Source: Zygnema cylindricum
Taxonomy: Eukaryota > Streptophyta > Zygnematophyceae > Zygnematales > Zygnemataceae
DNA length: 52,423 bases
Direction of reading: 5' to 3'
NCBI GenBank assembly: GCA_037447655.1
Contig: JBBHKE010000795.1
Location: 1-52,423 of the forward strand
Positions 7,804-52,423 of the stretch are shown piece by piece; position 1 is the stretch's first letter; each line of letters begins with the position of its first letter. The notes under the pieces are model-generated. The model saw nothing but the letters and a program-made list of their open reading frames with translations, did no database searches and was not told the origin of the DNA. Both the position numbers and the translations under genes were made by a program.

Positions 7804-8760
7804 AGGTATGTGCCCATGTATTAAAGTATCCACTTTTTCTTGTCGATTTCCCCCAAAACGCAGTTCTGTACGAGAAAAATTTTAGCCGCACAAAAAAATC
7901 AATTATTTGAAAGTACAAAAAAAAGACGAGTCAATACATTGAATGTACTTCATGTTTGTTGTCATGTGAACGCATTTTGGCGTTTTTCTTTTTTCGGCCT
8001 CCGGGCAAGAGAATCCACCTCGTCAAAAAATTTCATCAAAAATCGCCTCACGAGTGGATTTCAAAAAAGTACCACCCAAACAACGAAAGAAAAACAGTCC
8101 ACGCACGTGCCACACGAGTGGGAAAAATTTAGGCCGAGGGAGAGCACTCACTATTTTTTTTTGTGCCAGTCACGTGCATGTACGGAAAAGACGAGCATGT
8201 ACGAAAAAAAAATCTGTAGGGGTCTCGGACCTCCATTTTCATTCATGGGTCATTCGTATAATTTTGCGCCGTCGTCGCCTCTCCCTCTCCCTCTTACACT
8301 ATCGCTTTTGTCTCACAGTTTTTAGAATGAGGCACGACAATACTTGTAACAAATGAAAGATACTTGAAAAATAATTCTTTTTACTACCTTTATGTATATT
8401 TTTATGCCAAGTTGAGTGAAAAAAGTGGAAAAAACAAAATCGGATAGCTATGGCAGAAAGTTCTTGAATTTGTCACGTCGACGTTGTCACAATGTCACAA
8501 AACACGAAACATCTATAATTTCACGAAATTACAAAAATCTAGACGTCTACAACTGTTGCAGTTTTTGTTGGCGTCACCATTTGTCGAAAGTTTTGTAGTC
8601 GTCTTCATCTGTCACAAAGTTGTACCTACGTCTACAACCGTCATATGTCAAAGTTTCGATTTCATTTTCGCGCATTGGGACGCTCTTCAAAGTAGTACGG
8701 AGAATCTCACTCCAGTCCAAAATATTTTCTCAAAGTACCGATTAAATCGGGACATACCCT
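7804..8760 (-). mobile_element. TAA-flanked MITE, left copy of inverted pair (957 bp)
   Basis: It is the mirror image of 8764-9711 over its whole length with many mismatches. Ends read GGTATGTGCCCATG (left, 7805) and, on the opposite strand, GGGTATGTCCCG (right, 8760), so the copy has its own short inverted termini. TAA stands immediately outside both ends (7801-7803 and 8761-8763). A 3-bp TAA/TTA duplication is typical of PIF/Harbinger MITEs, which is how I classify it tentatively. It carries CT-rich tracts near 8280 and no coding sequence. Confidence 0.7.
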
Positions 8761-8763
8761 AAG

Positions 8764-9711
8764 GGTACGTCCCCATGTAAGCGATACTTTGAAAAAGTAT
8801 TTTGGACTGTAGTGAAGTGTTTCGTATTACTTTGAAAAGCCTCCATATATGCGAAAATGAAATTGGAACTTTGAAATGTACGCCGGTAAATAACTTTAAC
8901 AATTGACGACGATGAAACTTTAAATCGATGAGCTAACAAAAACAGCGACGGTTCTAGACGTCTAGATTTGTAATTAGACATGGCGATGTTTGGGTTTTGT
9001 GACACTGTGACGCGATGCTCACTTGTGACAACGTCGACGTCACAAAATTCAAGAGTTTTTAGCCATGACTATACGATTTTGTTATTCCGACTTTTCTCAA
9101 TCGACTTGCCATAAAAATATACATAAAGGTAGTCAAAAGAATTATTTTTTAAATATCTTTCATTTAAAACCAGTAATGTCGTGCCTCATTATAAAAAGTG
9201 AGAGATAAAAGCGATAGTGAGAGAGAGAGAGGGGAGAAGCGACGACGGCGCAAAATTCTGCAAAGGACCCATGAATGAAAGTGGAGGTCCGAAGACCCTT
9301 GCAAATTTTTTCCGTAAATGCGCGTCTTTTCTGTACATGCACGTGATGGGCAGGGAGAAAAATAGCGAGTTTTCTCCCTTGTCCTTAAATTTTACCACTC
9401 GTGTTGCGCGTGCGTGGACCGTTTTTCATTCGTTGTTTGGGCGGTATTTTCCCTAAAATAAGATCTCAAGGTGATTTTTGATGAAGTTTTTTGACAGGCT
9501 GTAATCTCTTGCCTAGGGGTCGAAAAAAGGAAAATGCCAAAATTCGTTAACTTGACAAAAAACATGAAGTAAATTCAAAGTATGGACTTGACGTTTGGTG
9601 TACTTTTAAATTATTGATTTTCTTGTACGGCTAAAGTTTTTCTTGTACGAAACTGCGTTTTGAGTGAAAACGACAGGATGAAGTTGATACTTTAATGCAT
9701 GGGGATGTACC
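8764..9711 (+). mobile_element. TAA-flanked MITE, right copy of inverted pair (948 bp)
   Basis: It begins GGGTACGTCCCCATG and ends CATGGGGATGTACC, flanked by TAA at 8761-8763 and 9712-9714. Together with the left copy it makes a 1.9-kb near-palindrome whose centre is the shared TAA. A fragment of the same family is at 5104-5470. A GA-rich tract lies near 9216-9236. Transcripts across the pair would form a very long hairpin. Confidence 0.7.
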
Positions 9712-12282: not shown

Positions 12283-13170
12283 TGTCTCACAGGCAGATAA
12301 GACACAAGCAGATAAAAAGAACAACAAAAGACAAAGCCCCTGCAAAAGATAACGTGCTGCAGGAGGAGGAATTGATCATGTGACCTTGATTTTGTGACCT
12401 ACCAGATAATTCTCGTACGGCGTAGCCGTTCGCCTTATCCAATAGGTCTTGATGAAGAATTACGTACTTTGTATGTGATATATATTTAAATTGTGATGCG
12501 ACAACACATACGAAACAAAATCAATGTGAAACGTACAGCACCGCACGAAATACTGTACCATACGAAACGACATTTAATTTTCAACGGACGAAATCAAATG
12601 TCGTTCAGGATCGACGGCTCGCAGAGCTGCCGGAATTTCGGAGTGGACATTTGGCGGTTTGCAAGCTAATATCGGCAGACGACGCGTGGCGCGATATGGT
12701 TGGACAACGCCTATTTAGGGGGGAGCAACTACGGTTCAGGAAATGACACGCGTAAGTAGAGCGGCCATGCCATACTATGGCTGTACAAAAAGTACAACGA
12801 TACATATACCTTCTTGTACCTTACAGTAATTTTATTATTTAGGGTACACTAGTAGTAGGTTTAGAGAGGGAGCTTAGGACTGGGAAAAAATCAAGGTAGC
12901 CACCTCTCTCTTAGAGTGCTTCTGTATTTACTGGCCATCTTTGGCCGGCCATAACTTAATGCTCGGATAACCAATTTTAGTGATTCTTTTGGCTGCGAAC
13001 TCATAGGAGTCCAAGCTACACAAAGTTGTATTTGGTCAGAGTTTTTGCGTGCCAGGGTGGCACCTATTCATTGCCAAAGTCAAAATTGCAAATATTATCC
13101 TATAGGCTTCATATAAGCTGGACATTTTGTGGACGACATTTTGTGGACCAATGGAGGTTAGAGAATTACA
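12283..13170 (+). mobile_element. Copia family F 5' LTR, second segment
   Basis: The LTR resumes, first repeating about 90 bp of the first segment, and runs to GAATTACA at 13170, directly before the primer site. Its sequence parallels the family C LTR (solo copy at 24036-25151, read on its minus strand). Its last 20 bp (13151-13170) read ATG plus five codons in frame with gag. No 3' LTR of this element is in the window. Confidence 0.8.
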
Positions 13171-14441
13171 GGTTATGGGCCCACCCTCTAGGGTGCCCAT
13201 TTTCAATAGGATAGGGTTCATTAATTGGGAAACCATGATGAGGGGTGCATTGTTTGAAAAACCACTGTTGGGTATTGTGAGTGGCCGTGTGCGTCGTTCA
13301 TCCGCAAAATTGGGAGTTCCACCAGGTTTTGGAGGATCTCCGTTCACAAGAGGATTTGCACGGGCAGAGGTGATAGAGGACGTGAAAAAAGCATCGTGTC
13401 GGACACAGAGAAGGAGAAGGGGAAGGAGAATCTCACACCGATGCCTAATGGATCGGTTACGGTAGCAGATGTTCACAAAACCGAGGCTAATGATAGTGAA
13501 ATCTGGGATTTCAACAATACCGTGGCGACTCATTTTTTTCTCGAGCATCTCACCTAGGCAGTGCCTACACCTTATCTTCATGTGGATAGGGCGAAGAGTT
13601 GTGGGAGGCTCTTGTCAACATTTACAAGAGTGGTATGATTTAGCAGTAGAAGCTGGCAGATTAGAAGGTACATGCATATGTGTACAAAGGGGGAAAGATG
13701 TTAGATTTTTGTAATGACTTGGCCGTGTTATTTATGGAGTTGGAGAGTGCACGGAAAAGGGAGACCGACAAAGAGAAGGTGAACACTTTGTTGATGAAAC
13801 TCCCAGATGATTATAGAAACATTGTTAACAGGGTTCAAGACTTGCCAGATCATCGATGGATCTAGAACTCCGTTGTGGGAATGATTTTGGTTCGGGAAAG
13901 CACAATTGAGATTCGGAGAGGAGGAAAGAGTGTTAAGGCATTGGCTGCTGGAACTAATTGGGGAGATAAGGATTCCAAGAAACCTTATGGAAACTTTGGT
14001 GGAGGTGAAAGACGAAATCAATCGGAAGGATCTGGATTGAGGCCTCTAAAAGGGCTTTGCCACTTTTGTAAGAAGCCGGGACATTACATGGCGGAGTGTA
14101 CCAAACTCACAAAGGTGAGATTGAAGGAGCAACAGGTCGAAAAACCAACCGCAAGGAAAAAGAAGGCATTTGTGGCAACACAAGTCACCGGAGAGGATTG
14201 CAAGGAGGCCCATAGAGAACTCATCCTCAACGAGGAGCTAGAGGCGAAAGGTAAGCCGGAGATTCCAAGGAGGCAAAAGTGTGTTATCGGTGGAGTAAGA
14301 GAAGATCCTGAAGAATGAAAGATTATTGATTCAAGAGCCTCTATGCATATGTGCAGAGAAAAACCATTGTTTACCAAGATGAGAAAGATCCCCACTGTAG
14401 AGATAGAGTATGGGGATGGGAGAATAATAACCACTAATTTA
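13151..14441 (+). pseudogene. Copia family F gag and start of protease, truncated
   Basis: Gag opens at an ATG inside the LTR (13151), passes through the primer site and reaches the gag landmark 'FINWETMMRGALFEK'. A frameshift near 13400, a stop near 13552 and others break it. The middle gag block (KGGKMLDFCNDLA...KLPDDYRNIVNRVQDLP) ends at a stop near 13863. Then come IRRGGKSVKAL and a perfect zinc knuckle CHFCKKPGHYMAEC (about 14058-14099). Protease starts with IIDSRASMHMC, so the catalytic DSGA is DSRA. Homology stops at about 14441 in unrelated DNA, so integrase, RT and the 3' LTR are missing. Confidence 0.85.
13171..13185 (+). promoter_or_regulatory. Primer-binding site, half initiator tRNA-Met type
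   Basis: GGTTATGGGCCCACC directly follows the LTR end. It is the complement of the anticodon stem-loop of plant initiator tRNA-Met as I recall it (GGUGGGCCCAUAACC), not of the tRNA 3' end that most plant copia elements use. The ATG at 13175-13177 pairs with the CAU anticodon and is in the gag frame. Confidence 0.8.
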
Positions 14442-17420: not shown

Positions 17421-18320
17421 TGAAATTTTGTGGGCTCCGTTGCCCCACATAATGCACATTTCACAAGTAGCCACTAGGATAGCATCAACCCACTTTGGTT
17501 TCCCCAATAATAAATGCCACCCTGGCAGGCAATGACTCTGGCCATCCTCACCCTTGTGAGGACAAGACTCCCTTGAGTCCAATGCAAAAAGAATCACCGA
17601 ATTTGCTCCCCTGAGCAATTAGTTATGGATGGCCAAAGACAGCCTATTTATACATAAAGTCACTTGGAGAGAGGCGCCTCAAATATTACGAAGTCCTAGT
17701 CTGCCTACTCTTAGCAACCTGTTACTAAACCCTAGTCCAATAGGAACACTATACTGTACAAAAAGGTACAGTGGCCGATATACTTATTGTACAGCCATTG
17801 TACGACATGGCCTTCAAGGTGAGGCTTGTCATATCGGGAGCCATGGTTCCTCCTCCCATCTTCTCTAGTATCCAATAGTGTGACGCCACGTGGCATTGCG
17901 TGACGCTATCTCCAAAGGCCGCCAAAAGCTCATTCCGGGTGGCGGCTGCAACGACGACCGTCCGATCAATTAAATTTACACGGTTCAGATTCGCGTTCGT
18001 GAAATAATTGTTTCACAGGCGTCTCGTAGTGAGTTTGGTGTGAATTTACCGTCTTGTCACAATTTAAGTACGTATCAAATGTAAAGTGTTCAGCGTTGCG
18101 TCGCCGACTTAATAGTTAAGGCCTCCCATTACACGAGGTTGGTAGGACTCAGGTTGAAATCCGGTCAAGGGCGACATTTTGGTAAAAATGCCCTTTACTT
18201 CAGTCTACCACCTTTTTGAATAGCGCGGCAACCATGGCGTGTCTTTCATTCTCTCTCTCTCTCCCTCTCGTTAGAGACTAAAATTAAATAGAGAAAAGAT
18301 ATAAATTACCTTTTTCAACA
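17421..18320 (-). mobile_element. Solo copia LTR, TSD GTTTC (900 bp)
   Basis: On the minus strand the LTR starts TGTTGAAAAAGG (18320) and ends AAATTTCA (17421). The 5-bp duplication GTTTC flanks it exactly at 17416-17420 and 18321-18325. It resembles family C and E LTRs in layout, including a B-box-like GGTTGAAATCC on the plus strand (18152-18162) and a CT microsatellite near 18252. The terminal 20 bp have ACG in place of the ATG seen in relatives. No internal region accompanies it, so it is a recombination remnant. Confidence 0.85.
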
Positions 18321-22993: not shown

Positions 22994-23985
22994 TGTTGAA
23001 AATAAGTATTTTCTAGGTCTAAATTAAATAAAAAGTGAAGAGAGCGCAAGCAGTCTGTCTCCACCTCTCTCTCTCCATCCCCCATACTTGTTGTAGTCAC
23101 TGAAGGAGAGAGAGAGAGAGAGTAGTGGAGCCATGGCTGCATCAGCTCCACTTGTGCAGGACTAAAGAGTGACCTAAGTCACTCTCAACAAAAGGTTGAG
23201 TCCGGCAGGACTCTAACCCCCAACCGACAGAGCATGGCGTAGCGGTTAGCTCTAACCGGTCTGTCGTAGAAGTTCGCTAGAGAATATAGGGTTTGATAAA
23301 TACTTATCCAGTATTACGGTAGTTATTCCGATTAACGGAAATACAAACATAAGTACATGGAGCGGATCAAATACAGTACGAATATGATTGCGCACGAAAC
23401 AAATGAATCAGCCATTTGTTTCAACGGTTGAGATTAAATACGAAATCCCATCCAACGGCACACGTCATCGCTTGAATCCCATGATGGTCACTTCGGCATT
23501 TAGACACGTGGCATGATCTGGCGCCACGTGGAGCGATAACAATCGGGCGCAGGAATTCCGAGGAACGTACGGATGAGTGAAAAGTGGACACGCGTCCGCT
23601 TAATAGCCTTGTCGTACATACGCCGTACAAAAGGACCACCGGCAACAGTACTTTTGATACGGTAGACTATTCTGATTGGTCCGTTCTCCAGTAGATAGGA
23701 GTTATTAGAGGGAATCAGGACTTAGTAAAATTTGGTAGACAGTAACCTCTCGCTTTGAGAGTTTGTACAAATTGGCATTTTTACTGCCTCATAACTTATC
23801 GCCTGGTTGCTCGTTTCAAAGATTGTTTTTCCTACCGACTCAAGGGAGTCCAGGGTGCACAGAGATGGAGTCATATTGTCTGCTTGTCTGCTTGGGTAGC
23901 AGTGGTTGCCATTGAAAGTGGGTTAGTTAATAACTATCTAGAGGCTTCTTGAATTCTGTAGTCCAATGGAGGACACAAAATTGCA
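22994..23985 (+). mobile_element. Family A LTR 1 (992 bp)
   Basis: Runs TGTTGAAAATAAG...AAATTGCA. It carries the U3 box ATACTTGTTGTAGTCACTGA (23084-23103), a GA microsatellite, the near-palindrome GAGTGACCTAAGTCACTC (23167-23184) and the antisense tRNA-like module. The last 20 bp are an ATG-led reading frame in phase with gag. Confidence 0.9.
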
Positions 23986-24000
23986 GGTTATGGGCCCACC
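23986..24000 (+). promoter_or_regulatory. Unit 1 primer-binding site
   Basis: GGTTATGGGCCCACC immediately after the LTR, a 15-nt match to the complement of the initiator tRNA-Met anticodon arm. Equivalent sites are at 30435-30449 (unit 2, perfect) and 35771-35785 (unit 3, first G changed to A). Confidence 0.85.
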
Positions 24001-24035
24001 CTCTAGGGTGCCCATCTTCAAGGGATCAGGGTTTA

Positions 24036-25151
24036 TGTAATTATGTGACCTCCATTGGTACACAGAATGTCCAGCTTATGTGAAACCTCTAGGATAGTAT
24101 ATGCACTTTTGAGTTTGACAATAAATAAGTCCCACCCTGGGACGCAAAAATTATGATTGACTTCACCCTTGTGTAGCCTGGACTCCCCTGATTCCGTTGC
24201 AAAAAGAATCACTGAATTTGCTCACTTGAGCATTAAGTTATGGCTGTTCAAAGACAGCATATTTGTACAGATGGCCTCTGGGAGAGAGAGGACTTTTCAA
24301 TATTTTTCTAAGTCCTGAAAAACTCCTAATAGCAATTCTAAACCAATCAAAAACGAGTACCCTAATTATCGTACATACAAAGTACACAAGCCGCCGTACT
24401 TTATGCACGGAAATATTCGGCACCACTTCCGGTCTGCCACGTGGCTTATAGGTCAACGTCATTCTGTCCTTTTTCCTCTTCCGGCATCCAATAGGATGAT
24501 GCCACGTGTCGTTTCCTCCCATTTCGCCGAACTTCTCCCAGATAGGTTTTCCGTCATCTCGGCACTCATGCGTGCCGTCCGTTCTTTTACGGCGACCGAT
24601 TTCAGCCGTTGGATCTGACGGCGCGCCGAATAAATGTGGACCGTTGAATTTCACCGGTCAATGTTCCGTGTTGACCGTTGAATTTCGACGGTCAACATTC
24701 CGTGTTGACCGCGTGAAATTCGTTCTCGCTTTGTGAACCGTTGATCGCAACATTTAATTTCGTCCGTTGAAAATTAAATGTTTGTTTCATTAATTTCGTG
24801 CGGTACTGCATTTCGTGCGGTACCACACGTTCCATGTAGCGTTTCGTTTCGTAGGATGTTAAATGGAATATGCGGTAGATATAACTTTTAAATCAATATC
24901 AAATACAAAGTATGTTACGTTTCACCAAGACCTAACGGATAAGGCGGATACCTAGGCCGTACGGTTCTTCTCCGGAGGATACAGGATCAAATCCTGTCTG
25001 TGGCATTGTTACTTTTGCAGGAGCCATATCTCATGTCTATCTTCTCATCTGTCTAAGGCAGACATGGCTGCCAGTCAGTTCTCAGTGACTACGACAAGTA
25101 TGACAAATGTAGGACCCTAAAAGATAAAATATAAAATACGATTTTTCAACA
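24036..25151 (-). mobile_element. Solo copia family C LTR, TSD GTTTA (1116 bp)
   Basis: It lies in unit 1 shortly after the gag start, between two copies of GTTTA (24031-24035 and 25152-25156). On the minus strand it reads TGTTGAAAAATCG...CAATTACA. Its terminal 20 bp again form ATG plus five codons, and the plus strand has the module TAACGGATAAGGC...GGATCAAATCC (B-box-like at 24984-24994). It has no internal region, so it formed by LTR-LTR recombination after insertion. Confidence 0.92.
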
Positions 25152-25156
25152 GTTTA

Positions 25157-26412
25157 TCTATTAAGAAGCCATGATGACAGGGGCTTTGTGTGAAAAACGA
25201 TACTGGGGTATTGTTAGTGGACAAGTGAAACGTCCACCTCCGGAACACCACCGGGATTTGGTGTAATAAGGTTTTCTAGATGAACATCTGCTGTAGCAGA
25301 GGAGGCAAATGATGGGGACAGCAGTGTGTCCGAAAAAGGGAAAGAAAAGGAGACACCTCTTACTCCTATTGCACCTATTCCCAAGACACCCGGAGCGGCG
25401 ATCGTGAAGACCATGGAGACCGATACTCAAATGTGGGAAGACACCAACATGGTTGCTAAGAACCTCATTCTGAGACACCTCACACAATCTTTGGCAACTC
25501 CCCACCTTCACGTTTACAAGGCCGAGGAGTTGTGGGTGAGTTTGATAGAGATCTATAGAGCTGGTACCATTTAGGAGCTCCAGTTGGCACGAAAAAAGTT
25601 GGGAAATTATTCTTACAAAGGGGGAAAGATGTTAGATTATTGTAATGATCTTTCTTGTTTGTATATAGAGATGGAGTGCCGGATGGACAGGTACAATGAA
25701 GATGAAGGTTAACATTCTTATCATGAAGTTACCCGACAAGTATGAGAATATAGTGTACAGGGTTCAGGGAATGAGTGATAGTTCATAGACGTGGAATACA
25801 GTGGTCCGCATGATACTTGTGCAGGAGAACACGATTGAAGTCAGGAGAGGAGGAAAGATCGTGCAAGCTTTAGCCGTCGAATGGGACAGGTGGAGACCAG
25901 ATCCGAAAAAGCCATACAAACAAGAAAGAATTCAGCCTAGAGGACCGAGGCCCCCAAAGGGCCTATGTCATTTTTGCAAAAAGCCAGGACACTTTATCGA
26001 TTATTGTGTCAAGCTGTCGGAGCTGAGGCTCCAAGAGGATCATGGAGGGGGTTCTTCCGGAGGGAAGAAAAAGGCACTTTTGGTCACAAAGGTGACAAAA
26101 GACACCGAGGACGAGTATTCTGAGGAGGATGGGGCGCTTCTTCTTGAGGAGAGTCTGGAGGAGAAGGAGATCCCTCGGAGAATGAAGTGTGCCCTTGGAG
26201 CAATTTGGGAAGCTCCACAGGAAGGATGAATTTTCGACTCAGGTGCATCCATGCATATGTGTTGTGACAAGGACCTCTTCACTAAGCTAAGGAAAATCCC
26301 AACTGTAGAAACATAGTATGGGGATGGGAGAGTGGTAACTACAGATCTAGTGGGATAAGTAGATCTAAAAGTCTTAGTAGAGGGTAAGACTTCTATACTC
26401 ACTTTCTCAGAT
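25157..26412 (+). pseudogene. Unit 1 gag and protease remnant
   Basis: Gag is separated from its start (23966) by the solo LTR. An early TAA replaces a conserved tryptophan, a frameshift follows near 25243, and more stops are seen near 25572 and 25786. Recognisable pieces are KGKEKETPLTP, HLHVYKAEELWVSLIEIYRAGTI, IEVRRGGKIVQAL and the zinc knuckle CHFCKKPGHFIDYC. Protease has IFDSGASMHMC with the DSGA triplet intact, but stops flank it near 26227, 26314 and 26356. Confidence 0.85.
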
Positions 26413-27480
26413 GTGCTGTATATTCCTCAGCTGAGTAAAAATCTTGTCTCTACATCTGTTTTAGATGACAAAGAATTTGATACCTTCACTAGAAAGGGAG
26501 TCTTTACAACTAAGTTTGGGGATGAGGTTTACTTCATTGCAGAAAAGGGTAGCCAAGGAATGTTTAGGCTTAACCTGAGTAATGAAAAGAAGAATGCTTA
26601 TAATTTTGGTGTCCCAAAGTTGATGATATGGCATAAGCGGTTGGGGCATGTGCATTTTGATTGGTTGAGGGAAATGAAGAGGCTTGGTGTAGTGGAAGGC
26701 ATTCCGTTCAGTGACACTGAAATGGTGGATGATTGTAGTGGCTGTGCCCAAGGAAAGGCTAACAGACTTCCTTTTCCTAAAGCCACCACATATAGAGGAG
26801 AGAAGGTATTTGATTTAATCCACACAGATATCTGGGGACCAGCAAGGGTACCCTCAGTTGGAGGGAAGAGGTATATGTTGACAATTACTGATGACTGGTC
26901 TTGATATTCCAGAGTCTACTTCCTAAAAACCAAGTCTGAAACACCAAGTTACTTCAAAGAATATAAAGCCTGGAGTGAGAAGTTGCATGGAACCCCCATT
27001 AAAAGAATAAGGAGTGATAACGGGGAGAATATACCTCTAACCAGTTTGAGGAATACTTGAGAGATGAGGGAGTTATGCACCAAAAAACTGTACCACATAA
27101 TCCAGAGCAAAATGGAGTAGCTGAGAGGTTAAACCGAACACTAGGAGATAGTGTAAGCAGTATGTTGGCTAACAAGAAAATAGGAAAGAGATTTTGGGCA
27201 GAAGCCATGAACTGTGCCAACTATATTAAAAATAGAGTCCATACCTCAACAGTCAAAGGTATGACACCTTATGAGAGATGGGTTGGAAGGAAACCGGATA
27301 TCTCTCACTTTAAAATATTTGGTAGCCAAGTTTACAATCTAGATACGGATAAGAAAAACTGAAAACTTGATGCTAAGGGAAAACCCACATATTTTGTAGG
27401 ATATGATGAGGATGTCAAGGGATATAGAGTCTATGACTTAGCAAAGCATGATATCATCTGGTCAAACATCTAGATTTTAT
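26413..27480 (+). pseudogene. Unit 1 integrase remnant
   Basis: The 163-codon frame 26413-26904 covers the GAG-pre-integrase region and the HHCC zinc finger (WHKRLGHVHF...CSGCAQGK), plus the first catalytic aspartate in LIHTDIWGP. It ends at a TGA replacing arginine after ITDDWS. A lost G near 27024 shifts the frame within the second catalytic block (RSDNGGEY in relatives). The frame resumes at 27057 with the catalytic glutamate in NGVAERLN and continues to a TGA in place of tryptophan at 27359-27361. Confidence 0.85.
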
Positions 27481-29425: not shown

Positions 29426-29449
29426 AAATAGGCTAGAAAATAACGGGAG

Positions 29450-30434
29450 TGTTGAAAAAAAGTATTTTCTAGGTCTAAACTAAATAAAAAGTGAAGAGAG
29501 CGCAAACAGTCTATCTCCACCTCTCTCTCTCCACCCCCCATACTTGTTGTAGTCACTGAAGGAGAGAGAGAGTAGTGGAGCATGGCTGTCTCAGCTCCAC
29601 TTGTGCAGGACTAAAGAGTGACCTAAGTCACTCTCAACAAAAGGTTGAGTCCTGCAGGACTCGAACCCGCGACCGACAGAGCATGGCGTAGCCGTTAGCT
29701 CTAACCGGTCTGTCGTAGAGGTTCGCTAGAGAATATTGGGTTTGATATATACTTATCCAGTGTTACGGTAGTTATTCCAATTAACGGAAATAGAGACATA
29801 AGTACATGGAGCAGATCAAATACAATACGAATATGATTCCGCACGGAAGAAATGAATCATCTATTTGTTTAGACGGTTGAGATCAAATACGAAATCCCAT
29901 CCGACGACACACGTCATCGCCGGGATCACGGAATGGTCACATCGGCATTTAATCACGTGGCATGACCTAGCGCCACGTGGAGAGATAACATTCGGTCGCG
30001 GGAATTTCGAGGAACGTATGGACGAGTGAAAAGTGGACACGCGTCCGCTTAATAGCCTTGTCGTACATGTGCTGTACAACAGGTACACCGGCAGTAGTAC
30101 TTTTGATACAGTACACTATTTTGATTGGTCTGTTCTCCAGTAGATAGGAGTTATTAGAGGGAATCAGGACTTAAGAAAATTTGGTAGGTAGTCACCTCTC
30201 TCTATGAGAGTTTGTACAAATTGGCAATTTTACAGCCTCATAACTTATTGCGTGGTTTGGCGTTTCAAAGATTCTTTTTCCTACGGACTAAGGGGAGTCC
30301 ATGCTGCACAGGGATGCAGTGAGATTGTCTGGTTGTCTGCTTAGGTAGCAGTGGTTGCCATTGAAAGTGGGTTAGTTAATAACTTTCTAGAGGCTTCCTG
30401 AATTCTACATTCCAATGGAAGACACAGAATTGCA
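29450..30434 (+). mobile_element. Family A LTR 2 (985 bp, shared by units 1 and 2)
   Basis: Runs TGTTGAAAAAAAG...AGAATTGCA with no target duplication of its own: purine tract on the left, primer site on the right. It acts as 3' LTR of unit 1 and 5' LTR of unit 2. The antisense tRNA-like module is best preserved here (29643-29715), with B-box GGTTCGAGTCC on the minus strand (29657-29667). Confidence 0.9.
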
Positions 30435-31740
30435 GGTTATGGGCCCACCCTCTAGGGTGCCCATCTTCAATGGACAAAGGTTTATCTATTGGGAAGCCAT
30501 GATGACAAGGCTTTGTGTGAAAAACGATACTAGGGTATTGTTAGTGGACAAGTGAACGTCCACCTTAGGGAACACCACCGGGATTTGGTGTAATAAGGTT
30601 TTTTGGAGCAACATCTACTGCAGCAGAGGAGGCAAATGATGGGGACAGTAGTGTGTCCGAAAAGGGGAGAGAAAAAGAGACACCTCTTACTCCTATTGCT
30701 CCTATTCCCACAACACCCGAAGCGGCGATCGTGAAGACCATGGAGACCGATACTCAAATGTGGGAAGACACCAACATGGTTGCCAAGAACTTCATTATGA
30801 GACACCTCACACAAGCTTTGGCAACTCCCCACCATCACGTTTTCAAGGCCAAGGAGTTGTGGGTGAGATTGATAGAGATCTATAGAGTTGGTACCATTAA
30901 GGAGCTCCAATTGGCACAGCAAAAGTTGGGAAATTATACTTTCAAAGGGGGAAATATGTTTGATTATTGTAATGATCTTTCTTGTTTGTATATAGAGATG
31001 GAGAGTGCCGGATGAACAGGTACAATGAAGATGAAGGTTAACACTCTCATCATGAAGTTACCCGACGAGTATGAGAATATAGTGTACAAGGCACAGGGAA
31101 TGATTGATAGTTCATGGACGTGGTATACAGTGGTCCGCATGATACTTGTGCAAGAGAACACGATTGAAGTCAGGGGAGGAGCAAAGAGCGTTCAAGCTCT
31201 AGCCGTCGGAGGGGACATGTAGAGACCATATCCAAAAAAGCCATACAAACGAGAAAGAATTCAGCCTAGAGGAGCGAGGCCCCCAAAGGGCCTATGTCAT
31301 TTTTGCAAAAAGCCAGGACACTTTATCGCAGATTGTGTCAAGCTGTCAAAGCTGAGGCTCCAAGAGAATCATGGAGAGGGTTCTTCCGGAGAGAAGAAAA
31401 AGGCACTTTTGGTCACAAATGTGACTGGAGACACCGAGGACGAGTCCTTTGAGGAGGATGGGGAGGTTCTTCTTGACGACAGTTTGAGGAGAAGGAGATC
31501 CCTCGGAGACAGAAGTGTGCCGTTTGAGCAATTTGGGAATCTCCACAGGAAGGATGGATTTTCGACTCAGGTGCATCCATGCATATGTGTCGTGACAAGG
31601 ACCTCTTCACTAAGCTAAGGAAAATCCCAACTGTAGAAACCGAGTATGGGGATGGGAGAGTTGTTACTACAGATCTAGTGGGATCAATAGATCCAAAAGT
31701 CATAGTGGAGGGTAAGACTTCTATACTCACTTTCTCAGAT
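30415..31740 (+). pseudogene. Unit 2 gag and protease remnant
   Basis: It opens at the LTR-borne ATG (30415), reads through the primer site into gag, then loses frame by a base deletion near 30510. A 120-codon gag frame (30653-31015) holds QMWEDTNMVAKNFIMRHLTQ and VRLIEIYRVGTIKELQLAQQKL. Later come MKLPDEYENIVYKAQGM, the knuckle CHFCKKPGHFIADC and protease WIFDSGASMHMC with DSGA intact. Confidence 0.85.
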
Positions 31741-34766: not shown

Positions 34767-34781
34767 AGAAAATAAGGGAAG

Positions 34782-35770
34782 TGTTGAAATTAAGTATTTT
34801 ATAGGTTTAAACTAAATAAAAAGTGAAGAGAGGGCAAACAGTCTGTCTCCACCTCTCTCTCTCCACCCCCCATACTTTTAATAGTCACTGAAGGAGAGAG
34901 AGAGAGAGTAGTGGAGCCATGGTTGCCTCAGCTCCACTTGTGCAAGACTAAAGAGTGACCTAAGTCACTCTCAACAAAAGGTTGAGACCGGCAGGACTCG
35001 AACCCCCGACCGGCAAAGCATGGCGTAGCCGTTAGCTCTAGCCGGTCTGTCGTAGAAGTTCGCAAGAGAATAAAGGGTTTAATAAATACTTATCCAGTGT
35101 TACGGTAGTTATTCCGATTAACAAAAATACAGACATAAGTACATGGAGCGGATCAAATACAATACGAATATGATTCCGCACGAAGAAATGAATCATCCAT
35201 TTGTTTGGATGGTTTAGATCAAATACGAAATCCCATCCGACGGCACACGTCATCGCTGGGATCACGGAATGGTCACATCGGCATTTAATCACGTGGCATG
35301 ACGTAGCGCCACGTGGAGAGACAACATTCGGTCGCGGGAATTCCGAGGAACGTACGGACGAGTGAAAAGTGGACACGCGTCCGCTTAATAGCCTTGTCGT
35401 ACATGTGCTGTACAACAGGTACACCGGCAGTAGTACTTTTGATACGGTACACTATTCTAATTGGTCCGTTCTCCAGTAGATAGGAGTTATTAGAGGGAAT
35501 CAAGACTGAAGAAAATTTGGTAGGTAGTCACATCTCTCTATGAGAGTTTGTACAAATTGGCATTTTTACAGCCTCATAACTTATCGCATGGTTGGGCGTT
35601 TCAGAGATTTTTTTTCCTACGGACTAATGGTAGTCCACGCTGCACAGGGATGCAGTGAGATTGTCTGCTTGTCTGCTTAGGTAGCACTGCTTGCCATTGA
35701 AAGTGGGTTAGTTAATAACTTTCTAGAGTCTTCCTGAATTCTGTATTCCATTGGAGGACACAGAATTGCA
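34782..35770 (+). mobile_element. Family A LTR 3 (989 bp, shared by units 2 and 3)
   Basis: Runs TGTTGAAATTAAG...AGAATTGCA, again without its own target duplication. The B-box GGTTCGAGTCC is intact on the minus strand near 34998-35008. The terminal ATG (35751) starts a 114-codon frame reaching far into gag, the longest preserved example of the LTR-to-gag frame. Confidence 0.9.
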
Positions 35771-37110
35771 AGTTATGGGCCCACCCTCTAGGGTGCCCAT
35801 CTTCAATGGACCAGGGTTTATCTATTGGGAAGCCATGATGACAGGGGCTTTGTGTGAAAAACGATACTGGGGTATTGTTAGTGCACAAGTGAAACGTCCA
35901 CCTCATGGAACACCACCGGGATTTGGTGTAATAAGGTTTTTTGGAGCAACATTTGATGCAGCGGAGGAGGCAAATGATGGGGACAGCAGTGTGTCCAAAA
36001 AAGGGAAAGAAAAGGAGACACCTCTTACTCTTATTGCTCATATTTCCACGACACCCGGAGCGGCGATTGTGAAGACCATGGAGACCAATACTTAAATGTG
36101 GGAAGACACCAACATGGCTGGGAAGAACTTCATTATGAGACACCTCACACAAGCTTTGGCAACTCCCCACCTTCACGTTTACAAGGCCGAGGAGTTGTGG
36201 GTGAGTTTGATAGAGATCTATAGAGCTGGTACCATTGAGGAGCTCCAATTGGCATAGCAAAAGTTGGGAAATTATACTTATAAATGGGGAAAGATGTTAG
36301 ATTATTGTAATGATCTTTCTTGTTTGTATATGGAGATGGAGAGTGCCGGATGGACAGGTACAATGAAGATGAAGGTTAACACTCTCATCATGAAGTTACT
36401 CAACGAGTATGAGAATATAATGTACAGGGTACAGGGAATGACAGATAGCTCATGGACGTGGAATACAGTGGTCCGCATGATACTTGTGTAGGAGAACACG
36501 ATTGAAGTCAATAGAGGAGGAAAGAGCGTTCAAGCTCTAGCCGCCGGAGGGGACAGGTGGAGACCATATCTGAAAAAGCCATACAAACGAGAAAGAATTC
36601 AGCCTAGAGGACTAAGCCCCTCAAAGGGCCTATGTCATTTTTGCAAAAAGCCAGGACACTTTATCGCACATTGTGTCAAGCTGTCGGAGCGGAGGCTCCA
36701 AGAGAATCATGGAGGGAGTTCTTCAAGAGGGAACAAAATGGCACTTTTGGTCACAAAGGTGACAGGAGACACCGATGACGAGTCCTATGAGGAGGATGGG
36801 GCGCTTCTTCTTGACGAGAGTCTGGAGGAGAAGGAGATCCCTCGGAGACTGAAGAGTGCCCTTGGAGCAATTCTGGAAGCTCCATAGGAAAGATGGATCA
36901 TTGACTCAGGTGCATCCATGCATATGTGTCGTGACAAGGACCTCTTCACTAAGCTAAGTAAAATCCCTACTGTAGAAATAGATAATGGGGATGGGAGAGT
37001 GGTTACTACAGATCTAGTGGGATAAGTAGATCTAAAAGTCTTAGTGGAGGGTAAGACTTCTGTACTCACTTTTTTAGATGTGCTCTATATTCCTTAGCTG
37101 AGTAAAAATC
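35751..37110 (+). pseudogene. Unit 3 gag and protease remnant
   Basis: The frame starts in the LTR, crosses the primer site (QVMGPPSRVPIF) and continues through FIYWEAMMTGALCEKRYWGIV to a TAA at 36093. Stops near 36256 and 36490 break the rest. The knuckle CHFCKKPGHFIAHC has its four ligands. Protease reads WIIDSGASMHMC. Of the three units this one keeps the best gag N-terminus. Confidence 0.85.
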
Positions 37111-41451: not shown

Positions 41452-42499
41452 TGAAACTCTGAGACCTCCATAAGTCCTCAGAGTAGACAGCTTCCAAGAA
41501 GCCTCTAGGATAATCCTAACCCCTTTGTGTTCCAGCAAAAATAATTGCCACCCTGGCAGACAAAATCCTTCACCACCTGCACCCCTGTAAAGGTAAGACT
41601 ACCCTGAGTCGGTAGCAAAAAGAATCTCTGAATTTGCTCCCCTGAGCAGTAAGTTATGGAGGGTCAAAGTTGACCTTTTGTACAGAAGCTCTCTGGGAGA
41701 GGGGGTCCTATCTTCTAATTTTTCTAAGTCCTATCTCTCTCACAGACTCTATCTACTGATGTACGGAACCAATCAGAATTGAGTTCCGTACGCAAAATTA
41801 CAGCTGCCGGTGTACTTTATGTACGGACATTGTACGACATGGCCAAAATGTCGACACATGTCAAATCCGGATTCGGTGCCATAATCTCCGTAGATTCCAC
41901 AATCCAACGGAATTTCGCCACGCGTCACCGATGTGGCGATGGCCACAAACCGCCGAAATCTTCCTCCGCGATCTCGACGCTAATCCCGGCCGTCCGATTA
42001 AATTCGGATTTAATCGTAGCTGTAATAAATACATGCGCGGTATTTGTTTCACTTACGAAACAAATGCGCGATACTGATTTTTGTCCGTATCGTAATTCGT
42101 ACATTATATATTACTGGATCTATGTATCCCGTAATTCATTCCAGTTAAATGATTTATCGCACGTATAATCATTTAAATAAATATCAAACTATATGCTACG
42201 TAACACTACGGCTAGACTTAACGGCTAAGGCTACCGGCTACTTCCTGTCTGCCGGCCGGTAGGTACAAGGATCAAATTTTGCCGCTGGCACATACATTTT
42301 AAATAAATAAATAAGCCCTAATATAAAATTCCCGTAAACCTCAGGATAGCCAAGGTAGCCATGGCTCTAGCTTCCTCTCCAATTTCTCAGTGACTGGGAC
42401 AAGTTTGAGAGTTGGAGTGAGAAGTTAGAGATAGACTGCCTTGACTTCTATATTTCTTTTCAGACCTAGAAAATACTAATAAAACCATTAGTTTCTACA
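41452..42499 (-). mobile_element. Element E 3' LTR (1048 bp)
   Basis: Partner of 46851-47899. Terminal ATG at 41471-41469 is conserved. The tRNA-like module is less intact here (GGATCAAATTT near 42268). Confidence 0.93.
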
Positions 42500-43196: not shown

Positions 43197-44075
43197 TTAT
43201 CCATCAGGAGATAATTCCTCGTCTAAGACTATGACTCCTTCTTCCTCACTCCCCTCACTTCCCTTCTTCAACTCCATTGGAGTTGTACAACTATTAGCTT
43301 TATCCATTTGGAATTTTTCAAGCATGTTCTCTATTGCTTCCTTTTGAGTCAATCTTATAATATTCCTTTTTCGGTCTCTCTCTACTTGAATTCCCAAAAT
43401 ATATCTTGTTTCTCCCATATCCTTCATTTCAAATCTCCCCTTAAGATCGGTTTTCAGTTTGTTAATTTTTTCCATTGATTTACTTAATACAAGCAAATCA
43501 TCAACATAAATTGCAATAAATATCAAACCTTCCTCATCTTCGAAAACATAGATTGAGTGATCTGAGCTGATCCGAATATATCCCAGACCGGTAAGAAACT
43601 CATCAAGCTTCTTATTCCATTGTCGAGGTGCCTGTTTCAAACCATAAAGAGATTTAATCAGCCGGCATACCTTACTCTCCTCTCCTTCCTCCACAAAACC
43701 TTCGGGTTGTCGCATGAAGAACTCCTCTTCCAATTCTCCATGCAAAAAGGTTGTCTTGATGTCCATCTGATGCACTTCTATGTCTTCCGCCGCTGCTAAA
43801 CTGAGAAGTATGCGGACGGAGGGAAATCTGACCACCGAGGCAAAGGTTTCCTCGTAGTCAATTCCTTCCTTTTGTGTAAATCCCTTTGCCACTAATCTGG
43901 CCTTGAAGCGTTCGATTGTGTTATCTGGGTTCAGTTTTAGTTTGAAAACCCACTCACAACCGATTGGTTTTCGGTTAGGTGGACAGTCCACCAGCTCCCA
44001 AGTATCGGCTGCCATGATTGAAGCCATCTCCTCATTGATGGCTGTCTTCCACCGGTTTCTTTCTGGACAAGTCAT
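43197..44075 (-). CDS. Element E reverse transcriptase frame (292 codons)
   Basis: A complete copia RT palm and fingers. GCEWVFKLKLNPDNTIERFKAR is the N-terminal block; motif A has D105 in QMDIKTTFLHG; SLYGLKQAPRQW is at 142-153; the catalytic YVDD is at 190-193. GYIRISSDHSIYVF and the KDMGE(T)RYILG block follow. All catalytic aspartates are present. It is in the same frame as integrase (TAG between) and RNase H (TAA between), so three single changes separate it from one polyprotein. Confidence 0.93.
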   Translation of the reverse strand: MTCPERNRWKTAINEEMASIMAADTWELVDCPPNRKPIGCEWVFKLKLNPDNTIERFKARLVAKGFTQKEGIDYEETFASVVRFPSVRILLSLAAAEDIEVHQMDIKTTFLHGELEEEFFMRQPEGFVEEGEESKVCRLIKSLYGLKQAPRQWNKKLDEFLTGLGYIRISSDHSIYVFEDEEGLIFIAIYVDDLLVLSKSMEKINKLKTDLKGRFEMKDMGETRYILGIQVERDRKRNIIRLTQKEAIENMLEKFQMDKANSCTTPMELKKGSEGSEEEGVIVLDEELSPDG

Positions 44076-44135: not shown

Positions 44136-45074
44136 CTATTTTTCTTGCAGTCTTTTGCTACTTCTCCTCCCCCCCTCAAAATCTGAGGCCGGAATAGATG
44201 GTTCTCGTGGATTCTTTCGAACAAATTCGGCTTCTCCCCTATCCTTTGATTCCGAATCAATTTCCACCACGTCTTTCGCTACGAGTAGAGTTGTCACTGG
44301 AGTTTCCACAGCCGAGTCCTTTTCAGTCTGATTTGTTCCTACAAGAATGTCATCTTCTCTAAAACCTGGATAGTTAGGAAGCTCAAAGTCATCGGAATTT
44401 TCTGACTCAAATCTGATTTTTACTGACTTCGTATATTTGAAGGGATCCACATACTTTCCTTCATCCATAACTACTAGATGCTTTACTAAGATTATATCTT
44501 CCCTTTTTAGATCATAAACTTTATATCTTTTAACATCTTCATCATATCCTAATAAGTATCCCGGTTTTCCTTTGGGATCTAGCTTCCAATTGGACCGATC
44601 AGTATCTAGAGTGAACACTTGACTGCCGAAAACCTTTAAGTGAGATATGTCTGGTTTCCGGCCTGTCCATCTCTCATAAGGTGTTTGATCTTTTATAGCT
44701 GAAGTAAGAACTCTATTCTTGAGGTAATTAGCACAGTTCATTGCTTTTGTCCAAAACCTTTTCCCTATCTTTTTATCTGACAACATACTTCTAGCACTAT
44801 CACTTAGTGTTGTATTTAACCTTTCAGCTACCCCATTCTGTTCCGGATTTTCTAGAACTGTCTTTTGGTGTTGAACCCCATCTTCCCTCAAAAAATCCTC
44901 AAACTGGTTAGAAGTATACTCTCCACCATTGTCACTCCTTACTCTCTTGATTGGAGTTTCATGGAGTTTTTCGCTCCATGCTTTATATTGTCTAAAACAA
45001 TCCTGAGTTTCGGACTTGTTTTTCAAAAAATATACCCGGGAATACCGAGACCAATCATCAGTTATAGTCATCAT
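44136..45074 (-). CDS. Element E integrase frame (312 codons)
   Basis: Integrase catalytic core: D48 in VRSDNGGEY and E84 in NGVAERLN are separated by 35 residues, the DD(35)E spacing; the first aspartate is in the preceding frame. WTGRKPDISHLKVFGSQVF and GYDEDVKRYKVYDL are the C-terminal copia integrase blocks, followed by an acidic linker to RT. The true protein start lies upstream; the ATG here only follows the frameshift. It ends at a TAG in frame with RT. Confidence 0.9.
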   Translation of the reverse strand: MMTITDDWSRYSRVYFLKNKSETQDCFRQYKAWSEKLHETPIKRVRSDNGGEYTSNQFEDFLREDGVQHQKTVLENPEQNGVAERLNTTLSDSARSMLSDKKIGKRFWTKAMNCANYLKNRVLTSAIKDQTPYERWTGRKPDISHLKVFGSQVFTLDTDRSNWKLDPKGKPGYLLGYDEDVKRYKVYDLKREDIILVKHLVVMDEGKYVDPFKYTKSVKIRFESENSDDFELPNYPGFREDDILVGTNQTEKDSAVETPVTTLLVAKDVVEIDSESKDRGEAEFVRKNPREPSIPASDFEGGRRSSKRLQEK

Positions 45075-46426
45075 AAATCTCTTCCCCCTGGTGAGGGCAC
45101 TTTAGCCGGTTTCCAAATATCTGTGTGTACTAGATCTAGAATTTTTTCTCCCTTATAGGTGGCTGACTTAGGAAAGGGTAATCTGTGTACTTTACCTTGA
45201 GCACATCCACTACAATCACTTATATCATCACTCTCACTGAACTGAATCCCTTCCACCACTCCCATCTTTTTCATCTCTCTTAACTTATCTAGATTCACAT
45301 GCCCAAGCCTCTTATGCCACATCATAATATCATGAACACCAGCATAATAAAGTTTCTTCTTTTCATTACTTAAGATCAGCCTAAACATCCCATGGCTACC
45401 TCTCTCAGCAATGAAATAGACATCATCCTCAAAACTAGCAGTAAAGACTCCTTCCCTAGTGCTAGTAAAAAAACCCTTATCATCTAATACTGATGTAGAG
45501 ATAAGATTTTTGTTCAACTCCGGAATAAACAATACATCTGAGAATGTTAATATGGATGCTTTTCCTTCTACTAACACTTTTAGATCTACCGATCCTACAA
45601 GAGTAGTGGTGACTATCCTCCCATCCCCGTACTCTATCTCTACGGTGGGAATCTTTCTTATCTTAGTGAACAGTTGTCTATCCTTACACATGTGCATGGA
45701 GGCACCTGAATCTACAATCCAGCCTGCTTCACCTTTCAATCCACCGTAAGCACATTTCTGCCTTCGTGGAATTTTGACCTCATTTTTCGCCTCCAACTCC
45801 TCATCCAAAAGGAGCTCATCGTCCTCGTCCTCGGATTCAGCCTCAAGTACCTGTGTGACAAGGGCCTTTTTCTTTCCTCTCGGGGTACCACCGGTCTGCC
45901 CCTCCTTTAACCAAAGCTCGGTTAGCTTAGTGCACTCTGCCATATAGTGCCCCGGTTTCTTACAAAAGTGACATAGTCCTTTGGGAGCCCTTGGTTCGAA
46001 CTCATCGGCCTGTTTTTTCTGCTCCCTACCCCCATAGTTTCCGACCGGTTTTCGAGAATCCCTGTTCCTCCAATCAGTCGCTGTTGCCAAGGCTTGGCCA
46101 CTCTTTCCTCCCCTTCGGATCTCAATTGTATTCTCTTGAACGAGAATCATCCCTACCACTGAGTTCCATATCCACCTTGAGTCAGGCAAGTCCTGCACAC
46201 GGTAAACTATGTTCACGAACTCATCAGGTAACTTCATAAGTAAACAGTTAACCTTTTCTTTTTCACTAAAATCTTTTCCCGCACTCTGTAGCTCCATGAA
46301 GAGTGTAGCAAGCTCATTGCAAAAATCCAACATATTTCCCCCTTTGTATACATACTCCTTCACTTTTTGATCAGCCAACTGTTGTTGCTGAATCGTACCA
46401 CTTCGGTACATCTCTATAAGAGCCAT
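45071..46426 (-). CDS. Element E gag-protease-integrase N-terminal frame (451 codons)
   Basis: The open frame includes the gag middle domain (residues about 1-100, with MLDFCNELA and KLPDEFVNIVYRVQDLP). A zinc knuckle has ligands C152, C155, H160 and C165. An acidic linker (about 185-210) precedes the aspartic protease, with DSGA at 229-232. GAG-pre-integrase follows, with H361, H366, C395 and C398 of the integrase zinc finger, and the first catalytic aspartate D426 in VHTDIW. It belongs to one polyprotein with the neighbouring pieces. Upstream it is bounded by an in-frame TGA. Downstream a one-base loss in a run of G near 45082 shifts the frame, and the next piece overlaps it by 4 bp. Confidence 0.9.
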   Translation of the reverse strand: MALIEMYRSGTIQQQQLADQKVKEYVYKGGNMLDFCNELATLFMELQSAGKDFSEKEKVNCLLMKLPDEFVNIVYRVQDLPDSRWIWNSVVGMILVQENTIEIRRGGKSGQALATATDWRNRDSRKPVGNYGGREQKKQADEFEPRAPKGLCHFCKKPGHYMAECTKLTELWLKEGQTGGTPRGKKKALVTQVLEAESEDEDDELLLDEELEAKNEVKIPRRQKCAYGGLKGEAGWIVDSGASMHMCKDRQLFTKIRKIPTVEIEYGDGRIVTTTLVGSVDLKVLVEGKASILTFSDVLFIPELNKNLISTSVLDDKGFFTSTREGVFTASFEDDVYFIAERGSHGMFRLILSNEKKKLYYAGVHDIMMWHKRLGHVNLDKLREMKKMGVVEGIQFSESDDISDCSGCAQGKVHRLPFPKSATYKGEKILDLVHTDIWKPAKVPSPGGRDL

Positions 46427-46441
46427 CCAAAGATCGGATGC

Positions 46442-46870
46442 TCATTCTACGTGCAAATGAGGACATGCAAGTCTTTGAGTGAGATGGCGTAGGATGAAGT
46501 GCTTTGCCGCCATATTGTTGAAGTCCCAGGTTTCAGTGTCATTCTCCTCATTCCTCGGAATAGGTGACATGAATGCTGAAACAGTTGCTATTGGTGTGGT
46601 CGCCTCCTTCTCCTTTCCTTTGTCCACCACCTCTCCTTCTTTTATTTCATCCGTTGAAGGTGAATCCTCTTTCTTGGTGAATATGCTTCCTCCAAACCCT
46701 AAAGGAATTCCAAGACTTGATGGACGCCCCAACTGTCCACTCACTATCCCCCAAAACCTTTTTTCGCATAGAGCTCCTATCATCATACTTTCTTAGTATA
46801 TGAAGCCAGTTCCATTAAAGATTGGTACCCTAGAGGGTGGGCCCAAAACCTGAAACTCTGAGACCTCCAT
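46442..46870 (-). pseudogene. Element E gag, N-terminal part
   Basis: Reads from the LTR ATG (46870) through the primer site into FNGTGFIY, where TAA replaces the conserved tryptophan, then MMIGALCEKRFWGIVSGQ and a Ser/Glu/Lys-rich stretch to WDFNNMAAKHFILRHLTQ. It ends at TGA at 46442-46444, in frame with the next piece. This is the capsid-forming region of copia Gag. Confidence 0.85.
46836..46850 (-). promoter_or_regulatory. Element E primer-binding site (one mismatch)
   Basis: Minus strand GGTTTTGGGCCCACC. Compared with family A, one A-to-T change lies at the position paired with the U of the tRNA CAU anticodon; it also turns the primer-site ATG into TTG. The ATG in the LTR is unaffected. 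Confidence 0.8.
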
Positions 46871-47899: not shown

Positions 47900-48841
47900 G
47901 TCTGTCTCCACCTCTCTCTCTCTATCCCCCATACTTGTTGTAGTCACTGAAGGAGAGAGAGAGAGAGAGAGTAGTGGAGCCATGGTTGCCTCAGCTCCAC
48001 TTGTGTAGGACTAAAGAGTGACCTAAGTCACTCTCAACAAAAGGTTGAGTCCGACGGGACTCGAACCCCCGACGGGCAAAGCATGATGTAGCCGTTAGCT
48101 CTAACCGGTGTGTCGTAGAAGTTCGCTAGAGAATACAGGGTATGATAAATACTTATCTAGTGTTATGGTAGTTATTCTGATTAACGGAAATACAACTCTA
48201 AGTACATGGAGCGGATCAAATACAATAAGAATATGATTCCGCACGAAACAAATGAATCATACATTTGTTTCGACGGTTGAGATCAAATACAAAATCACAT
48301 CCGACACCACACGTCATATTTGAGATCGCGAAATGGTCACTTCGGCATTTAGTCACGTGGCATGACCTGGCGCCACGTGGAGAGATAACATTCGGTCGCG
48401 GGAATTTTGAGGAACGTATGGACGAGTGAAAAGTCGACACGCGTCCGCTTAATAACATTGTCGTACATGTGTCGTACAACAGGTACACCGGCAATAGTCC
48501 TTTTGATGTGGTACACTATTTTTGATTGGTCCGTTCTCTAGTAGATAGGAGTTATTAGAGGGAATCAGGACTTAAGAAAATTTGGTAGGTAGTCACCTCT
48601 CTCTTTGAGAGTTTGTACAAATTGGCATTTTTACTGCCTCATAACTTATCACCTGGTTGGGCGTTTTCAAAGATTATTTTTCCTACGGACTCAGGGAAGT
48701 CCAGGCTGCACAAAGGTGTAGTTACATTGTTTGCATGTCTTTTTGGGTAGCAGTGGTTGCCATTGAAAGTGGGTTAGTTAATAACTATCTAGAGGTTTCA
48801 TGAAATCTGTAGTCCAATGGAGAATACAGAATTGCATTTAG

Positions 48842-52164: not shown

Positions 52165-52423
52165 TGAAATTCTGTGGTCTCCATTGACCCACAGAATGAG
52201 CAGCCTATGTAAAGCCTCTAAGATAATATTTGCCCCTTCTACTTTCCCGCTGAATAAGTGCCGCCCAGGCACACAAATATTCTGACCACTCTCACACTTG
52301 TGAGGATAAGACTCCCCTGAGTCAAACGCAAAAAGAATCACTGAATTTGCTCACCCGAGCAGTAAGTTATGGCTGGTCAAAGATGACCTTTATAGTTACA
52401 AGCTCTCTTAGAGAGAGAGGTAC
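52165..52423 (-). mobile_element. Copia LTR end, cut by the window edge
   Basis: Matches the 3' end of the E, C and 17-kb LTRs read on the minus strand. The terminal 20 bp again encode ATG plus five codons (start at 52184). The base left of the LTR is C and no primer site follows in the minus direction (GGTACA instead), so this is a solo LTR or the 3' LTR of an element extending beyond the window. Confidence 0.75.

Follow-up and report, generated by a model that had tools for sequence, protein, structure and literature searches.

The yeast retrotransposons Ty1 and Ty2 share one arrangement at the start of gag, and in Drosophila copia gag opens after the primer-binding site (PBS). Ty1 has a 5' UTR of 53 nt and a PBS at nt 95-104, according to passages of PMC5454406. 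The ICTV profile of the Pseudoviridae presents LTRs as non-coding and gives the 5' part of the initiator tRNA as the primer in the genus Hemivirus, e.g. in Drosophila copia and yeast Ty5 (PMC8515867). Passages of PMC10886601 and PMC5371799 describe such half-tRNA priming, in which the initiator tRNA is cut within its anticodon region and the 5' part is used, for fungal copia elements as well as for Drosophila copia and Ty5. Among plant copia elements, a half-molecule (1/2tRNA-Met) PBS is assigned to the lineages Osser, Bryco and Gymco-II in part of PMC6317226; the term "start codon" is absent from the main text of that paper, where the Gag start is not described under that name. A literature search of limited coverage found no report of a Gag start inside the LTR of half-tRNA plant elements.

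Here, we studied the LTR retrotransposons of a window of 52,423 nt (the whole stretch of DNA that was analysed) from Zygnema cylindricum, and their relatives in the assembly. Gag(-Pol) of these half-tRNA-primed Ty1/copia elements probably opens at an AUG in U5, exactly 20 nt before the end of the LTR, and would continue uninterrupted across the 15-nt PBS into gag. As in Ty1, the PBS would be translated within GAG from an AUG lying upstream in the LTR part of the RNA (passages of PMC5454406 and PMC4974528), the likeness holding here at the level of sequence. The first-pass annotation knew of no LTR retrotransposon with this arrangement; the PBS of Ty1, described as lying within GAG in parts of PMC4974528 and PMC5454406, contradicts this. 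The two systems differ in detail. The Ty1 AUG lies about 41 nt before the PBS, as computed from numbers in part of PMC5454406, and the AUG of the elements described here 20 nt before it. In Ty1, gag and pol are separated by a +1 frameshift (in part of PMC7175516), whereas one copy sampled here holds a single frame of about 1330 codons and shows no such frameshift. In contrast to Ty1, the PBS of our elements pairs with nt 25-39 of the tRNA. The 5' part of the initiator tRNA as primer is shared with Drosophila copia and yeast Ty5 (parts of PMC10886601 and PMC5371799; PMC8515867), and the type of PBS with Osser, Bryco and Gymco-II (part of PMC6317226). Hence, the arrangement itself is already known, and what is new is its half-tRNA version together with a hotspot that writes stops at codon 5. 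The features of the window are the following.

13151..13170, plus strand: last 20 bp of the F LTR (tip read), ATG start and codons 1-6.67
13171..13185, plus strand: F PBS, 15 nt complementary to tRNA-iMet nt 25-39, in which 13175-13177 is another in-frame ATG, facing the CAU anticodon
13151..13462, plus strand: F open frame that begins at the LTR ATG, crosses the PBS and runs within gag up to the first stop (codon index 104)
23966..23985, plus strand: A1 LTR tip, ATG (MEDTKLQ)
23986..24000, plus strand: A1 PBS, complementary to tRNA-iMet over 15 nt
30415..30434, plus strand: A2 LTR tip, ATG (MEDTELQ)
30435..30449, plus strand: A2 PBS, complementary to tRNA-iMet over 15 nt
35751..35770, plus strand: A3 LTR tip, codon 1 is TTG
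35771..35785, plus strand: A3 PBS, one mismatch
48817..48836, plus strand: A-family LTR tip, ATG, no PBS after it
46851..46870, minus strand: E 5' LTR tip, ATG (MEVSEFQ)
46836..46850, minus strand: E PBS, in which A>T abolishes the PBS ATG (VLGPPS), the LTR ATG being kept
41452..41471, minus strand: E 3' LTR tip, ATG; this LTR is 97.4% identical to the E 5' LTR over 1052 bp
45071..46426, minus strand: E gag, protease and pre-integrase, in frame with the LTR ATG (46870); Retrotran_gag_2, Pol_BBD, gag_pre-integrs
44136..45074, minus strand: E integrase core and SH3-like domain
43197..44075, minus strand: E reverse transcriptase (RVT_2)
24036..24055, minus strand: family C LTR tip, ATG, codon 5 is TAA
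19218..19237, minus strand: family C LTR tip, ATG
52165..52184, minus strand: tip of the 52-kb LTR, ATG
17421..17440, minus strand: tip of the 17-kb LTR, ACG

The elements belong to the Ty1/copia superfamily (Pseudoviridae), as given by the gag/pol domain order on E: Retrotran_gag_2, Pol_BBD, gag_pre-integrs, rve and RVT_2, i.e. the integrase precedes the reverse transcriptase. The assembly has six matches to the anticodon arm of the initiator tRNA, and ARAGORN called tRNA-Met(CAT) in the three loci submitted to it; the letters of this tRNA presumably resemble those of land-plant tRNA. F, A1 and A2 have a PBS whose 15 nt are complementary to nt 25-39 of the assembly's own tRNA-iMet genes (counted from the gene start seen in an ARAGORN-called locus); in E, where the PBS has one substitution, 10 nt are complementary. 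Since the pairing stretch ends at nt 39, the primer would be the 39-nt 5' half of the initiator tRNA, and complementarity to this internal 5'-half stretch points to half-tRNA-primed (Hemivirus-like) elements.

An ATG exactly 20 bp before the LTR end had been claimed for ten tips of the window. We read nine of them so directly (13151, 23966, 30415 and 48817 on the plus strand; 24055, 19237, 46870, 41471 and 52184 on the minus strand), but the tip at 35751 has TTG. The 17-kb LTR does have the ACG reported for it (tip at 17440, read directly), so that overall nine of the eleven listed LTR ends carry the ATG. Where an internal region follows (13151, 23966, 30415, 35751 and 46870, all read directly), the frame of the tip runs on as Q-V-M-G-P-P-S-R-V-P-I-F, as had been described, with L instead of M in E. 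Its continuation into gag held in part. In A3 and E it is in phase with the gag frame that holds the zinc knuckle (stops occur in both), but F and A2 shift frame further into gag. In A1 gag is broken by an inverted family C LTR (24036-24055, minus strand) that starts about 50 bp past the LTR/PBS junction. That the tip never shifts frame was too strong a statement: two of 58 distinct junctions sampled from the assembly (L015 and L016) have a 1-nt shift in it, and a third, L010, has no such tip.

These junctions are very abundant. The exact junction between LTR end and PBS, i.e. CA followed by GGTTATGGGCCCACC (CAGGTTATGGGCCCACC), occurs 2655+2526 times in the 353-Mb assembly, or 5181 times against 6 (3+3) for the reversed-pattern control. 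In this assembly-wide pattern count, ATG stands at -20 in 4366 of the 5181 exact junctions (2227+2139; control 3+2). In the fetched sequence it is present in 48 of 54 LTR ends that have a PBS next to them and in 24 of 27 that have none, the latter not having been picked by their PBS. Junctions were fetched from the top of the contig-ordered list and thus match the PBS exactly, the exceptions being junctions of the window itself and others that a fetched stretch contained by chance. The list holds 60 junctions, 58 of them distinct, and 55 of the 58 entered the position table and the trees. The rule for setting junctions aside, ATGGAG within two substitutions, is biased toward ATG and took out three of the 58, namely the two with the 1-nt shift and the divergent copy L010. 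Only three changes, all private, break the ATG among the 55. In 13 of the 58 junctions the frame stays open at least as far as codon 330; the LTR ATG is present in all 13, one of which has a stop at codon 5. In the divergent copia copy (L010:703, plus strand) the PBS is the same and a start resembling that of gag comes next (VMGPPPWLPIFDGSNY), but position -20 lacks the ATG and the frame has a stop 20 nt upstream of the PBS.

Selection on codons was analysed on trees built from the LTR upstream of the tip and the sequence downstream of the PBS, with tip and PBS excluded. We took changes on terminal branches mostly as decay after insertion and changes on internal branches as those of lineages that replicated. 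In the main run (55 of 58 junctions, none picked for a stop or a lost ATG), changes in codons 13-20 at positions 1/2/3 number 3/1/18 on internal and 13/14/18 on terminal branches (p 0.0016). With a tree built without codons 13-40 they number 2/2/17 and 16/14/19 (p 0.0016). A larger run of 61 of 65 junctions, which includes six loci picked for a stop or a lost ATG (L053, L055-L057, L059 and L060), gave 2/1/19 and 17/18/19. This excess of third-position changes on internal branches indicates that translation of gag includes the very first codons past the PBS in the lineages that replicate. Upstream of these codons there are only two in-frame ATGs, codon 1 in the LTR and codon 9 in the PBS, opposite the anticodon. 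Since selection at the level of codons acts directly after the PBS and no in-frame AUG lies in between, the PBS is very probably part of the coding sequence. The earlier claim that both the LTR end and the primer site are coding is thus supported for the PBS by the selection right after it, but not for the LTR-encoded peptide, as codons 2-6 show no third-position excess. On internal branches, positions 1-2 of these codons have 12 changes and position 3 has 5 to 6, against 31 to 32 and 13 on terminal branches (p 1.0 and 0.77 in the two trees). Codon 2 is kept. Codons 3-6, with 17 to 18 internal changes among the 55 junctions, vary irrespective of the amino acid, and a search by codon position found no amino-acid constraint in them.

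The start codon itself behaves differently from its neighbours. Among the 55 junctions the LTR ATG has no internal and three terminal changes and the GAG next to it none and four, whereas positions -26 to -21 have 19 and 16 (17 and 18 in the second tree). At the internal rate of these neighbours, zero changes in the three sites of the ATG have a Poisson probability of 7e-5 to 2e-4. The contrast between internal and terminal branches is not significant for the ATG alone (0:3 vs 19:16, p 0.23, 55 junctions); it is so for ATG plus GAG (p 0.011 and 0.030 in the two trees). The p of 0.0065 obtained for the ATG in the larger set is inflated by five copies picked for a lost ATG. The result for the ATG depends on few changes.

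The leader is poor in ATG. Only 5 of 81 LTR ends hold an ATG in the 60 nt before the tip, whereas in mononucleotide shuffles 58 do on average and never fewer than 47. In the same 60 nt GTA is present in 35 of the ends, TGA in 49, AGT in 62, GAT in 33 and TAG in 77; the 81 rows are related, i.e. they are not independent tests. Up to about 370 nt upstream, ATG density remains low, between 0.5 and 10.4 per 1000 positions; beyond that it rises to as much as 37. Other trinucleotides swing widely across bins too, some falling as low as 1.0 to 3.5. TATAWA motifs in 58 rows cluster near -370 (8 hits) and at -220 to -230 (14 hits). Together, the ATG-poor leader and the positions of TATAWA suggest that transcription starts well upstream of the tip. 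The transcript would then begin far upstream in the LTR with an AUG-poor leader, so that a scanning ribosome would meet the U5 AUG first.

Pairs of LTRs tell the same for young copies. We obtained 24 distinct 5'/3' LTR pairs, three of them picked for a stop (L020:686 and L021:3755 are one element). The partner is a matching LTR found downstream and the pairing thus a candidate one, with one alignment spanning only 80 bp (L028); 12 of 20 elements with a fetched downstream stretch yielded no pair. Nine of the 24 pairs, one of them picked for a stop, are at least 97% identical, and all nine have the ATG in both LTRs, with a codon-5 stop in the 5' LTR of one. The absence of internal-branch changes, the ATG-poor leader and the ATG in both LTRs of young pairs make the LTR AUG the likelier start than the PBS AUG.

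The first 6.7 codons of Gag would thus lie in the LTR and the PBS would encode most of Q-V-M-G-P-P. Judging from complementarity, the same 15 nt would anneal to the 5' half (nt 1-39) of the initiator tRNA-Met and prime minus-strand DNA. In reverse transcription of the retroviral type both LTRs receive their U5 from the 5' end of the RNA, and selection on the Gag start would therefore be carried to both LTRs of each new copy. The same three bases may serve the initiator tRNA in two ways, as a pairing site when it is the primer and as the start codon that it reads. If the LTR end and primer site are part of the gene, an annotation that opens Gag after the PBS would miss its N-terminus. For a copia group present in thousands of copies in this plant-like genome, these results suggest that a gene can extend over the LTR end and the primer site, as Ty1 shows for yeast.

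Gag might instead start at the PBS AUG, which is complementary to the anticodon of the initiator tRNA, and the U5 AUG would then be an in-frame upstream AUG of little use. We consider this unlikely, even though it too would explain why selection on codons begins right after the PBS and is consistent with the lack of constraint on LTR codons 3-6. The PBS ATG has G at both -3 and +4, whereas the base at -3 of the LTR ATG is mostly C (C 53, G 10, T 8, A 1; n=72). L010 has the PBS AUG as its only AUG, and the codon-5 stop occurs in an otherwise sound-looking copy. This copy, with 99.8% identical LTRs, is otherwise open across 511 fetched codons, so that Gag could be made only from its PBS AUG. But a start at the PBS leaves unexplained both the conservation of ATG and GAG at -20, amid varying neighbours, and the ATG-poor leader. 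In E, moreover, the PBS ATG is lost (46850) and the LTR ATG kept, although this is one copy only. The stop carriers also speak against it. For seven of fifteen we found a 3' LTR without PBS, which has G in six and T in one, indicating that the stop was mostly absent at insertion. Two others have a partner that itself carries a PBS and T (one being a tandem array on contig C109, the last LTR of which counts as one of the six G cases), and six have no partner. A pair was also looked for in two more stop carriers, the long loci L017 and L024, and none was obtained. The scarcity of codon-5 stops in 3' LTRs fits selection against stops, but is not decisive, as a hotspot confined to the 5' LTR would alone give the same picture. 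With the U5 AUG as the preferred start, the PBS AUG may still serve as a second one: C at -3 of most U5 AUGs may let some ribosomes slip to the PBS AUG, 24 nt downstream, and stop carriers and L010 have only the latter.

The main alternative named in the first-pass annotation was conservation of the LTR tip for binding by integrase. In this view, extended here to strand transfer, the frame would be fortuitous. The terminal CA and the A at tip positions 12 and 14 are indeed near-invariant without any coding reason. Yet the remaining conservation is focused on ATGGAG, 15-20 nt from the end, with variable flanks on both sides. Depletion of upstream ATGs is a signature of scanning, at odds with a role in integration alone, and the gag frame has to open at or before the PBS anyway. 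ATGGAG hence does not need this alternative, which we find very improbable; integrase may still account for the few bases at the very end. The least credible account of the constant ATG is common descent within one recent family, with no selection: the copies in the trees are all related and share the PBS, and the contrast for the ATG alone is not significant, but internal branches of the same trees carry 17 to 19 changes in the six bases upstream and 17 to 18 in codons 3-6 and none in ATGGAG.

Tip position 13, which is 8 nt before the PBS and the first base of codon 5, is a hotspot of substitution. In the trees of 55 junctions it has 14 to 15 terminal changes, against 6 at the next tip site. 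It differs between LTRs in 7 of the 21 pairs not picked for a stop, the other 19 positions together differing in 15 of 399 comparisons (p 3e-5). In four of the seven (L013, L041, L047, L048) the 5' LTR is non-G and the 3' LTR is G, in two the reverse holds (L009 and L036, 91% and 85% identical; the tip of L009 looks shifted) and in one (L019) both LTRs are non-G. The change is to any base and mostly specific to the 5' LTR, as in the contrast between L001 and L049. Genome-wide, junctions with a PBS have at this position 2336 G, 383 A and 206 T, i.e. the hotspot makes codon 5 a stop in 206 of the 2925 junctions counted with one of these three bases. The 51 fetched ends with a PBS, which include some picked for a stop or a missing ATG, comprise 32 G, 9 T, 7 A and 3 C. 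Among the 39 without PBS are 28 G, 7 A, 3 C and 1 T; three of these 39 look unrelated, and another (L015) is a decayed junction. The ratio of T to A is thus 9:7 with and 1:7 without PBS (p 0.08).

Tentatively, and with somewhat less than even confidence, we attribute this to a hotspot of reverse-transcription errors inside Gag, with misincorporation mostly in the 5' LTR as the minus strand runs off a short U5 RNA before the second strand transfer. RNase H would leave this short RNA beside the tRNA, and minus-strand synthesis would end there and add a wrong base, which would become fixed in the 5' LTR only. Errors of Ty1 at this place were reportedly ascribed to variable RNase H cleavage beside the primer by Mules, Gabriel and co-workers in 1998. 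Were Gag to begin in U5, the hotspot would fall within the protein and the stop would be its direct by-product. If this is true, changes of GAA/GAG to TAA/TAG would leave several per cent of new copies unable from birth to make Gag from the LTR AUG. Such copies would be dead or reliant on the PBS AUG, the complement of the initiator anticodon, and hundreds of copies would form a genomic record of the stop site of RNase H and of the second strand transfer.

Searches for similar proteins returned distant relatives. With the gag-protease ORF of E, 25 distant hits of 22-33% identity were found, and none of the nine inspected has an N-terminus of the M-E-x-x-x-x-Q-V-M-G-P-P type. The gag piece of another copy gave 1647 candidates, none with E <= 0.01. 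When viral contigs were scanned for CAGGTTATGGGCCCA, 9 stretches matched.

Two stretches look like tandem arrays with a common middle LTR. One is probably the run LTR-internal-LTR-internal-LTR at 23132-35770 of the window. The other, also probable, lies at 55000-67200 of contig C109 of the assembly (G000; L098-L100) and has TAA at codon 5 in its first two LTRs and GAA in the last. Arrays with a shared middle LTR are probably the product of unequal recombination between LTRs, of which this is the expected pattern. The window further holds an ORF of 402 aa with no Pfam match (49547-50755, plus strand) and, at 8283-9233, an inverted repeat with arms of 189 nt, 85% complementary and spaced by 573 nt.
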